Origin: Chrysomallon squamiferum
Lineage: Eukaryota > Mollusca > Gastropoda > Neomphalida > Peltospiridae
Length of the DNA: 64,000 bases
Reading direction: 5' to 3'
NCBI GenBank assembly: GCA_012295275.1
Contig: CM022665.1
Span: forward strand, 11,157,476 to 11,221,475
In this document: positions 28,501-34,500 of the stretch, one piece after another
Position numbering within the stretch: position 1 is the stretch's first letter
How the letters are laid out: each line of letters begins with the position of its first letter
The notes under the pieces: model-generated
Database searches by the model: none
What the model was told of the DNA's origin: nothing
What the model saw: the letters and a program-made list of their open reading frames with translations, nothing else
Translations under genes and position numbers: made by a program

Positions 28501-31500
28501 AAGTACAGTCCTTAAAACATGCCTTTCCTAATGAAAAAATTAAATTAAATTATTGCACAGTAAACTGTATTCTTATGATGGCACACAGTTAATATCATTT
28601 ATGCAGGTTTGAGCAATTCTTATTACTGCCATTGTATACAGATGTCCTGAGCATCTGATGTTTTTTACATCTGCAAGGGGTCCTGAAACAATGTATCTAT
28701 GGATAATACAGGTCAACTGAATTAATACACAAATGTAAAAAAAAAGAAAAAAATTATAAAAGGGCTTTTATAAAGTATCACTTTAATATTTTTTCACTAA
28801 CTGAATATGAAATAAACAAACTAACAACAACAACAACAACATAATCTATTGGGCTTACATCATCTTTTCTGTGATCAACAAGTAGTAAATTACAACAGTT
28901 TCTCTTTTATATTAGCAATATAATATTCACAGGACCATTATTTTCCTTTGAATACCAAATATCAAAACATCTGTTGTTTATCTTGTAAAATAAATTATGG
29001 CTTTTGTAATACAGAAATATGTGTCTGGAATAAATTTTAGGGTAAATATGAAATGAATAACCACATGTCTAAATGTTAGTTGGTAAATTTAAACCTTAGA
29101 AGGATAACGTAATTATTTTAAACAATTACAAAATACACACATACACACATACATACATACATATATACACACAGACACACAAAAACACACACACACACAC
29201 ACAGCATGGCACTGTTGATCCTCAATTCCATGGCCTAAGTCTGGGAAATTGCGAATGTAAACTGTAACCTAAAATTTACTGAAACATTACATTTTAGTAC
29301 ACATAACAGCTATAAAATAAATAATATAATAATGTAACAACAACATAGACATAAAAACAAAATAAACAAATGTCACACAGTATCTATAATGAAAAATGTA
29401 TAGTAGAAATATGTACACTAGGATAGTTATGAGTGCAATTGTAAAAGTTACTGTTATCTTGATGGAAAGTGGGTTGAGAGATGGTTGCCATGATCATATA
29501 TTTGGGATTCAGAGTAACTTAACAATGGGAAATGGTGGGAAATTTAAACTTTGTGATTTTTCCAGATTTCAACTGGATTTCCTGAGATCTGGAAAATCGA
29601 GGGTCATGTGTATATATATATATATATATATATATAGAGAGAGAGAGAGAGAGAGAGAGAGAGAGAGAGAGAGAGAGAGAGAGAGAGAGAGAGAGAGAGA
29701 GAGAGAGAGAGAGAGAGAGAGAGAGAGAGAGAGAGAGAGAGAGACACACACACACACACACACACACACACACACACATACAGATACACACACTTTAAAT
29801 AAATATAAGAATGTAATATTATGCAGAATACATATACAGAGAAACAGCATACACAGCACAAAAATACACACAATATGAAAGCAGTTAATTGTTAAAATCT
29901 GTGAAGATCTTTAGAACAATTCAAAAAGATGTTTTATGATATACAAACAATTATTTTTTCTTATTCATAAATACATTTTAGATATTTCAAATAATCAGTA
30001 ATAACAGTAACAATATTACTATTAAAACAAACAGACTGACAGCATAATGCTGAAACTTGCATTTTGGATGGAACAAATGAAACTACAGACTGAACCAAAC
30101 GGAACTGCATCTGTATTTGTATTAGGCAAACTGCTCAGCATAACAATTCTGCTGCTGTATTCTATTTTTATCTGTAGCCTAGTTTGCCAAACCTCTGTTG
30201 AGTATAATATAGAATTGACTTTAATTAATGTTTTTTAATGTCAAACAGGAAAATTAAATGTTAATGATTAGTTCTTAATGTGTCAAATAACAGCAGTAAA
30301 ATGAAAACAAATGCTAAAATATATTTACATTAATAATAAATTTTAATTATAGAGAAAGTTTACTAAAATATTCATATGATGGAAAGCATTATTTTGCTAC
30401 TAGGAACCAAATAGCCTATAAATGGAAAGAGAAGATTTCTCAAGATTGGAGGTCCGATGCCATTGGGTTCTTATACCCGATACCTTGAGTATGAAACTTC
30501 TGATTCTATAGAATAGTCTTCCAATGGCGCCTTTGACTTCCATTTTTGTTTTGAATATTAAAAAAAAAAAAAAAAATATGAAATTGATATCTCAAGTTTT
30601 CTTCTTATTATTTTTTGACACCTGTTTATCTAGTATAAAGATGGTATATTAAAATTCAGCAGTGTTACTGTATTTATGTATCTTTACTGTTACTGTTACT
30701 GTTAATGATATTGTTATTAATATTATTATTATTATTATTATTATTATTGTTATTATCATCATTCAAATATTAATAAAACTTTAGTTTCAAAAGCAGTTTA
30801 AATTTAAATACTCTGTGTAAAACATAAATAACTTACACTAAGAAGGAATTATCTTGGAAACAGAATGCCAGTTAATGTAAAGGATACCAAAATTCTATGA
30901 TTCTATGGCAATTCTTTTTTTTTTCTTAGTTTTTGACTGATATGTGAATCTTTATCATAATTCTGTTAATTTTTTCTTCTGACATCTAATAAATATATAA
31001 GACATGCGAAAAGTAAACTGTGTACTTGTTCTAATATTGGTAATATTAATACATGCAATAATTTTGTTGTCTAACATATTCAAACTTAACAGTACCTATC
31101 GATTTGCCAGATTATTTTCATAAGCAACACTGCTTTGTAAACAAAATTTAAAAATATATTATTTCATTTAATACTTTATGTATTACAAGACTCCATCTGA
31201 CATGATGAAATGATGTTACTTGTTAACATGAAATAATCAATAATAACCAACCTGGCTAGGCTCACAGCATGTAAGACTTAAAGCAAGACCCAGTCTGTAC
31301 AAATTATTTACATATACTCATAGATAAAAATTATTATTATTATTATTATTATTATTATTTTTTTTTTTTAAATGATGTTTCTGTCAGTTTATCAATAACT
31401 GCATTATGCTTTTTACATATATCTACTAATACAATGCATAAAACTTTTTAAAAGACAATTTGGACGAATGAATACTGAAACTTTCCAAATTTGTACAAAT

Positions 31501-34500
31501 ATTTAACTTTAAATATATTTCAGTGTTTAAAACATCTCCATTTTGAGATAAGACCAAATAAATATTTCTCAATATATGTAGTGACATATTAAAGATGCAA
31601 ATAATTATATGTATCAGTTAAGAAAAAAATAATTTCTAAACAATAAATAATTTATTATTTGAAATTTTCTCATTTGATATTCATGTATGTGTAACCATTC
31701 CAAGGTTATTGCAAAGCATATTACTATATAAATGAGCTGTAATGCAGTTACTATTGGAGGTCCGAAGCCATTGGGGTTAAGTACCCGATACGTTATGAAA
31801 AAATCCCGAATCAATAGACTAGGCTCTCAATGGTGTTGATTGACTTCCTTCTTGCTACTTTTTTTGTTTATACAAAAAGCATATTTTTTAAATTTATACA
31901 TTTTTGGTTTTGGTTTTACTAACAATTTTAGTATGAATTAAAGCTACATTTTAATTGCTTTTTAAAAAAATGTATTTCAACTTTGATTTGAACAGCCAAC
32001 AAACATATCTCTTTAAAGGGTGAAATTAGAAATAAAACCCACCCTCATTTTACAGGCACCAATGACTGTATTATAAAAAACAAATTTAACACCTGTAAAA
32101 CTAAAATAATAAAAAAAAATCAGTATTTATTGTACATTTACGTATGATGGGTTTTGTGACTACATTCTGTTGATGGATGTTTAGCAAATAACTCAGGCTC
32201 AAAAGTGTACATTTATTGTTTTAACTGATGAATATAGCAAACCAGATTATGAGTGAATGCAGCATTTATATAACAGATGACACTGTAACCACGTCATTAG
32301 TTAATTATATATTATTTCTTCATAGTATGCAGTAATATATATTTTATTATTATGAAAAGTATAAATCTTTTGAAAAGCAACTTTATGATAACCATACAGC
32401 CGGAAAATCATTATGTTGTTTTACTTGTATGTCAGCAACAGTTGTGATGAAACTTGAAAGTGTATTAATTTGAACAGAAAATTACCACTTTGATTCCTGA
32501 TTTACACTCACATAAGCGTGCACATGCACAGTTATATGAAGCATTTCATTAAAATAATATATATATATATATATTTATATATGTGTGTATGTATGTATGT
32601 ATATGTAAATTACTTATAACAATAATAATAATAATTCAAACAAAAATTGTCAGTAGTAGATTATAATTCTTATGATAATGTAATAACACTTGTGTTCACT
32701 GACTTTTTTTTAAATTTATACATACATACATATATATACAAACCAGTGGACAAAAGTGTTATTACATCATCAGAAGAATTATAATCTACTACTGACAATT
32801 TTTGTTTCAAATATAATAATAATTTATTTATTTATTATATTTTTAAAACAGACGGTTTGAAAATTATTGATAAAAGGAAACGATATCAACATAATCAGTT
32901 TAATCAGCTTTAGTGGAAAATTTGAATCTCAGAAGTATTAACAAAATCAATAAATATCATTAACAAAATTATAAAAAAAAAAAAAAATTTCAACAGACAA
33001 AGGATTGTGGAAAAGCATCATAGGCCAGGTGGGTGATACAATTGCTAAGCAAAGTAAACTACTACTACTAGCAAAAAAAAAAAAAAAAAAAAAAAAAAGT
33101 AAAAAATAAATAAATAAATAAAATACAAAATATGAAATGAAATATAAAATATGAAAAAAAAACCCCACATAAATAAATAAATAAATAAAAATAAATAATT
33201 AATTGAAAAAAATTAATTAATTATCAGTATAAAAATCATGAAAAAGAGAAGAAAAGGAATAGTCAGGTATTGAAGCTGAAATAACTTCCTTAAGGACACA
33301 GATGCATTAACTTTAAATTAAAAAAAAAACAGTCATTTTAAAAAATTAAAAAATTTAAAGCTTACTGTTATCATTATTAAAACAAGGTGGTGAAGTTGTT
33401 GTGGAGAATACTATTTCGAAGAAAATACAACAAATAAACAAACTGATCAATAATTTAAACACAAAAAAAAAAAAAAAATAAAAAAACCTGGAAAAGTAAG
33501 ATCCACAGATATAAAACTGAACAACTAATAAAACCATTTTGTCTACCACAGAAAGGTTATTTAAGTGAACTAAATGAAATGACTTATAAGAATACAAGAG
33601 AAACAAAGTAACAACATTAGGTGAACTAAAAACTATGAAAATGAAGTCAGGACAAACTGTATTATATTTTACAGATCAGTCTATAATTAATAACAAAACC
33701 AGTTAATTAAATGCTAATACTCATTCAACAGATGTTATTGAAAACAGATTTTTGAAAATCAGCTACAGAAGGGCATTTTGAAGTTAGTTTCATTATGCAT
33801 GCTACATTACACTTTATACAATGCTTAGATTTCCTTTGTATGTAATAAAGCTTGTACCAACACATGAAGATTAAGCATAACTAATAATTTTATGGAGATA
33901 TTTAACAATAATTGACCAAAAAAAAAAAAAAATTTAAATAGAAGATGATCAATTTGTCTTAATGAATAATATATATAATTCAAGGGGTTAGAATCAGAAG
34001 GTCTTAAGTGCACACACACACTCAAGACCTTCTGTCTCCTTGATATATAGTCATATTTGTGTATTATAAAATCTAATTACGATGCCAATAATTCATGTCT
34101 TAATTAAGCCTTTGCTTTTGTATCATTGGCAAGATCTTATTAAACTTTAACTTTTGACAGATGACATATATACTATAATTTATAATATTGCCTTTTAATC
34201 AACAATTATTTCAGCATTATACACTATAATGTTATAAAAGATAGGTTAATTTTTAAGCATCTGCTTGGGCTTGTTTTATTGTTAATTTTATCATTAACAA
34301 AGGTTCATGCTAAAAATATAAAACCATCATACAGAAGTATATAATAAGCAATTATTATTATTATTTTGTTAGCACACATATTTCATGGTTAGTATTTTTA
34401 TTTAATCTCAACAAATACAAAGTATTTTAAAATCGTACCTGCTGTTATGTTTTGTAAAATTCACAGCTTCTGCAATGCTTTGTTGTATATCAAGAGGAAG

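Follow-up and report, generated by a model that had tools for sequence, protein, structure and literature searches.

Y RNAs, the RNA partners of Ro60, have been described in vertebrates and nematodes, and related RNAs have been reported from two insects and a lancelet as candidates of Anopheles, Bombyx and Branchiostoma (PMC4726728). A 2009 survey did not find Y RNAs in schistosomes, which are lophotrochozoans, and stated that only vertebrates and nematodes were known to have them (PMC2770079). The Ro60 site is described as a helix of 7 bp with a single bulged C and, on the other strand, a bulge of 3 nt (PMC4726728), and clusters or tandem arrays are usual for vertebrate Y RNAs and the nematode RNAs (PMC5745555, PMC4726728). 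No paper on mollusc Y RNAs was found in the open PMC literature, searched mostly by titles and abstract starts, and an earlier report is possible. Here we describe two Y RNA-like sequences from the gastropod Chrysomallon squamiferum (GCA_012295275.1, contig CM022665.1, positions 11,157,476 to 11,221,475). The window, meaning the whole stretch of DNA analysed, comprises 64 kb within a 49.2-Mb contig of a 404.6-Mb assembly, and coordinates are counted from its first letter. Judging from the sequence and from family models, we suggest that the two copies are very probably paralogous, functional mollusc Y RNA genes in the broad sense, that is, genes of Ro60-partner RNAs, transcribed by RNA polymerase III.

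Among the nematode RNAs, CeY of Caenorhabditis elegans binds the Ro protein and has an upper stem unlike that of vertebrate Y RNAs (PMC4450293). Two elements are associated with replication activity: the upper stem carries A/GUG-CAC/U, and the loop UUA(U/C)C (PMC4726728, PMC4450293). CeY is inactive in replication, and two motif-bearing C. elegans stem-bulge RNAs (sbRNAs) are inactive too (PMC4450293).

Two Y RNA-like genes in tandem

An earlier note on this DNA had pointed to a tandem pair of sequences of about 100 nt, 1.3 kb apart, and its coordinates and parts agree with the sequence. Both are on the plus strand, copy A at 30448-30541 and copy B at 31756-31848. The predicted genes, based on RF00019, a structural descriptor and fold z-scores, and their stems are the following:

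30448..30547, plus strand: Y RNA-like gene A (expected RNA of about 95-100 nt with a U end)
30448..30457, plus strand: gene A, 5' strand of the Ro60-site-like stem (7-bp arm, C 30455, GA)
30459..30467, plus strand: gene A, 5' arm of the upper helix
30520..30528, plus strand: gene A, 3' arm of the upper helix
30533..30541, plus strand: gene A, 3' strand of the Ro60-site-like stem (UU and GACUUCC)
31756..31865, plus strand: Y RNA-like gene B (expected RNA of about 105 nt with a U end)
31756..31765, plus strand: gene B, 5' strand of the Ro60-site-like stem (7-bp arm, C 31763, GA)
31767..31775, plus strand: gene B, 5' arm of the upper helix
31826..31834, plus strand: gene B, 3' arm of the upper helix
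31840..31848, plus strand: gene B, 3' strand of the Ro60-site-like stem (UU and GACUUCC)

Both copies can form a 7-bp closing helix, a bulged C, GA opposite UU, an asymmetric loop and an upper helix of 8-9 bp, and the letters of all these parts are found in both as the earlier note had described them. The closing helix is GGAGGUC/GACUUCC (30448-30454/30535-30541 in copy A, 31756-31762/31842-31848 in copy B), and GA faces UU at 30456-30457/30533-30534 and at 31764-31765/31840-31841, respectively. Pairwise alignment and comparison of the arms also bear out that the loops have diverged between the copies while the helices were kept: without gaps, identity is 83% over the 5' 42 nt and 86% over a 14-nt stretch on the 3' side, and in the pairwise alignment the middle part diverges.

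Model and descriptor searches

A cmscan search of positions 30200-32100 with the Rfam models returned RF00019 (Y_RNA) for copy A at 30447-30546 (33.4 bits, E 1.9e-4) and for copy B at 31755-31853 (18.5 bits, E 1.5), with E-values that count all 4227 families over the 1.9 kb searched. The alignment covers model positions 1-96 of 96 in both copies. A script descriptor composed of a 7-bp helix, CGA, TT and an 8-bp upper helix, which was written after the finding was known, matches exactly two places on both strands of the 64 kb, and these are copies A and B. Dinucleotide-shuffled versions of the window, also on both strands, gave 3 matches in 60 shuffles, so the layout exceeds chance.

Helices and predicted fold

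The copies were compared with four hand-typed human Y RNA sequences (Y1, Y3, Y4 and Y5) using arms set by hand; a six-row MAFFT alignment had shifted the 3' arm of copy B by one base. Pairs 5-8, 10, 11, 18 and 19 are identical across the six sequences, including at the wobbles G5-U and G10-U. Positions 3, 4, 14 and 17 are paired in all six, and there neither letter of the pair in either copy matches any of the four human RNAs. Both copies also show both-side changes at position 15 relative to two of the four hand-typed human sequences and at position 16 relative to one, and at position 20 copy A alone differs on both sides, from one human Y RNA. Non-pairs occur at 13 and 21 in the hand-typed human Y3 and at 13 in Y5. 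At the level of the letters compared, covariation of the helices between the copies and the hand-typed human Y RNAs is clear.

The similarity to vertebrate Y RNAs (RF00019) extends to the length, the end-to-end model alignment, the 7-bp lower helix, the letters of the C and of GA opposite UU, the UG-CA core of the upper helix, the T-run end and the clustering of paralogs. With the hand-set arms, the loop above GA/UU measures 1 by 4 nt in copy A as in the four hand-typed human RNAs, whereas in copy B it measures 1 by 5 nt.

Copy A has a fold z-score of -3.87 and copy B one of -2.62; among 200 shuffles of each, none folds as well as copy A and 2 fold as well as copy B. Seven pairs are possible in the lower helix of both copies, with a probability of 0.98-1.0 for the three evaluated, and the first seven pairs of the upper helix reach at least 0.96 in both. 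Eight of the nine upper pairs of copy A have a probability of at least 0.98 and the ninth 0.29; in copy B seven of nine reach at least 0.96 and two are at about 0.5. The GGGU/ACCC mini-hairpin that the earlier note had proposed is conserved in both copies as words, but the hairpin is found in neither minimum-energy fold, and it was rejected as a structural element.

Putative promoter and terminator signals

The TATAAAT words, the common word upstream of them and a T-run after each copy, all claimed beforehand, are present. The signals, with upstream positions counted from the first G of each copy, are:

30368..30390, plus strand: putative proximal sequence element (PSE)-like element of gene A, read from the sequence, with ATATTCATNTNNNNGNAANCATT common to gene B
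30417..30423, plus strand: TATA box of gene A (TATAAAT, -31)
30543..30547, plus strand: predicted T5 terminator of gene A
31677..31699, plus strand: putative PSE-like element of gene B, read from the sequence
31727..31733, plus strand: TATA box of gene B (TATAAAT, -29)
31859..31865, plus strand: predicted T7 terminator of gene B

Human Y RNA genes have a TATA box near -30. Within 120 nt upstream, the copies have in common the 8-mers ATATTCAT at -80/-79 and TATAAATG at -31/-29, together with an A/T-rich 7-mer near -113, giving three words of at least 7 letters placed within two positions of each other. Over the same 120 nt, 52 letters agree at the best of seven offsets and 38 to 45 at the others. 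As a random control, two 7-mers at least 20 nt apart were shared by 69 of 20000 place pairs, pairs closer than 300 nt being skipped. Stems and two promoter words conserved amid otherwise weakly similar flanks form the pattern of old, constrained duplicates, and we infer such a history for copies A and B. Regarding the PSE of molluscs, no mollusc paper was found in the open PMC literature, where the matches concerned fish.

Assignment to the Y RNA family

Several observations weigh against the assignment of the copies to the Y RNAs. Both RF00019 scores are below the curated gathering cut-off of 38 bits, and a scan of the whole window that admits E-values up to 10 lists copy A, at E 0.0065, but not copy B. 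In that scan a mir-297 match (37.2 bits, its cut-off being 90) comes out slightly ahead of copy A with E 0.0057, so the E-value by itself does not settle the matter. The upper stem reads UUG-CAA in the copies, its first pair being U-A, so it keeps the UG-CA core and is not the A/GUG-CAC/U motif set between G-C clamps, while vertebrate Y RNAs have GUG-CAC. The UUA(U/C)C loop motif is missing as well, the ninth upper pair being followed by UUCUUAUA in copy A and GUUAAGUA in copy B. In the free RNA, the GA/UU pairing has a probability of 0.04 in copy A and 0.00 in copy B, and in the minimum-energy fold of copy B the CGA pairs with UUG and leaves the C unbulged. The human Y1, Y3, Y4 and Y5 sequences used for comparison were typed by hand and are not database records.

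The C and GA/UU proposed in the earlier note are present in both copies as letters, the same as in the hand-typed human Y RNAs, but folding of the free RNA gives the GA/UU pairs little weight. The GA/UU probability in the hand-typed human RNAs is 0.02-0.05 for hY1 and hY4 and 0.90-0.98 for hY3 and hY5. The check with Rfam models that the same note had proposed supports its reading, though at scores under the curated cut-off: RF00019 aligns with both copies from end to end, and the nematode model RF01656 detects copy A only (20.5 bits, E 0.4, with copy B unlisted and the cut-off of 38 bits not reached). No match was found at the Rfam gathering cut-offs in the window and 220 kb around it. We consider the model scores suggestive, pointing to a Y RNA and not conclusive.

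Since the cut-off of 38 bits is missed, the pair is not filed as a curated RF00019 member, and since the loop and stem motifs are missed it is not filed as sbRNA. The nematode sbRNAs, of which RF01656 represents one set, resemble the copies in the two-stem plan, the letters of the bulged C, the UG-CA core, the tandem arrangement and the polymerase III genes (predicted for the copies), but differ in the RF01656 result and in the UUAUC loop motif that the copies do not have. The absence of this motif and the position within an intron of DHDDS also separate the pair from vertebrate Y RNAs. However, CeY binds the Ro protein without the upper-stem motif, so the motif is not required for a Y RNA in the broad sense, and the copies, likened to CeY by its description, may resemble it in the divergence of the upper stem. 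Overall, what the earlier note observed is confirmed, and its Y RNA-like interpretation is supported.

Copy number, flanks and alternative explanations

One or both copies could be decayed or retroposed Y RNA pseudogenes, with the working genes elsewhere. In mammals the known retro-pseudogenes of Y RNAs number on the order of 1000 (PMC5745555), copy B has an RF00019 score of just 18.5 bits, an A17 run (30560-30576) starts 12 nt past the T5 of gene A, and a 10-nt direct repeat, AAAGCATATT, at 31713-31722 and 31876-31885 encloses gene B and its TATA box. Nevertheless, retroposition would leave the promoter behind, yet the TATA box and the upstream element are in register in both copies, and the stems are intact while the loops have diverged. 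The longest words shared by the 60-nt flanks are a 7-mer for copy A and a 10-mer for copy B, neither directly at the element ends, and words of this kind are no great rarity: at least 7 letters in a row were shared at 607 of 1500 random places and a 10-mer at 642 of 20000. No target-site duplication fits the A17 run. With the promoter words in register and the flank words not very unusual, a retroposon read from the A17 run and the flanking repeats was rejected, and we regard the pseudogene explanation as improbable.

The AT-richness of the window (28% GC) and the terminal inverted-repeat-like helix in which both copies end would also fit a small hairpin transposon, or miniature inverted-repeat transposable element (MITE), or another repeat whose likeness to Y RNA arose by chance. 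Such an element is not expected to preserve GGUCCGA/UUGAC with covarying neighbours. A coarse DNA search of the species' own genome with copy A gave one match, copy A itself, from one candidate; as it did not detect copy B, its result counts only against repeats that are nearly identical. R1, a covariance model built from the pair, was run on 284 kb, the window together with 220 kb of surrounding sequence, where it scored 116.7 bits for copy A and 113.5 for copy B, as given by construction, and where the other matches were the antisense of copy A at 17.4 bits and then nothing above 14.8 bits. No target-site duplications were found at the ends of the copies in 60 nt on either side. The dozens of copies with target-site duplications that the earlier note had named as the mark of a MITE were not seen in the coarse genome search, the 284 kb or the 60-nt flanks. 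It is unlikely that the pair belongs to a transposon present in many near-identical copies, and a MITE or other repeat resembling Y RNA by chance is, in our judgement, extremely improbable. An RF00019 scan of the own genome returned 0 matches with 52 of 88732 candidates scored, and missed the window's own copies, which makes it uninformative.

It is also conceivable that the copies belong to another polymerase III RNA class with a similar stem and a partner other than Ro60. In C. elegans, ROP-1 precipitates contained CeY as the single major RNA, and not sbRNAs, which agrees with such a class; in a gel shift, though, ROP-1 did bind one sbRNA (PMC4726728). Pairs 5-8, 10 and 11 of the Ro60 site, however, are identical to the hand-typed human ones and pairs 3 and 4 covary, and we hold this explanation to be highly improbable. 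The pair as functional Y RNA genes in the broad sense is the reading we retain.

Host gene and surrounding window

The two RNA candidates are antisense to DHDDS, a minus-strand gene whose first coding frame (35985-36359) and C-terminal exon (26164-26451) match human DHDDS, and whose exons in between were assigned by eye from open frames. They lie in the intron flanked by the frames 34408-34581 and 28346-28549:

28346..34581, minus strand: host intron of DHDDS with the two flanking exon-bearing frames (middle exons assigned by eye)

The location in a large DHDDS intron and the antisense orientation given in the earlier note hold, but not the label of intron 4: the pair lies between the third and fourth coding-exon-like segments identified, and that numbering would require one additional 5' exon.

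Next to the intron-bearing DHDDS gene, a TMEM161-like protein of 502 amino acids is encoded in one uninterrupted open frame at 19460-20968 on the plus strand (Pfam E 2.3e-184). Its identity is 68% with Patella vulgata, 63% with Lottia gigantea and 63% with Haliotis rubra, and one ENA protein reaches 86%. A WD40-repeat exon followed by acidic serine-rich frames occupies 43281-62842 (plus strand), a region that presumably resembles a BRWD/PHIP gene. Weak mir-297 and mir-1277 matches, at 2994-3064 (minus strand) and 35011-35085 (plus strand), are far below the cut-off and are probably low-complexity repeats.

Proposed function and meaning

We propose that RNA polymerase III would transcribe each gene from an external (type 3) promoter, formed by the PSE-like element and the TATA box, and would stop at the T-run, giving RNAs of 95-110 nt that end in a U tail to which La would bind. 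Ro60 would dock on the lower stem at the bulged C, and the RNA would sit outside Ro60, stabilise it and regulate how misfolded RNAs enter its channel. Through their diverged loops the two RNAs could recruit different partners. Transcription, the polymerase, the binding of Ro60 and La and this division of labour are what we infer from the features above. In a search with the human Ro60 protein, the best 120 of 2866 matches were vertebrate wherever named, which is uninformative on a mollusc Ro60.

Since nothing but the UG-CA core is left of the upper-stem motif that vertebrate and nematode RNAs use in replication initiation, and UUAUC is missing from the loop, Ro60 binding is the expected main conserved role of these RNAs, and a replication activity appears doubtful from their sequence. 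The inactivity of CeY and of the two motif-bearing sbRNAs likewise leaves such an activity of the copies uncertain. It is tentatively possible, though we lean against it, that this promoter-bearing mollusc cluster has kept the Ro60 docking core unchanged in every letter, whereas the upper stem and the loop have drifted in their replication motifs. If this is true, Ro60 scaffolding, and not replication initiation, would be under the deepest selection in animals, and the docking and replication modules would be separable outside nematodes too. As Y RNA genes, the mollusc pair would supply seed sequences for a model able to find the remaining members, and would add the lophotrochozoan branch to the Y RNA family.

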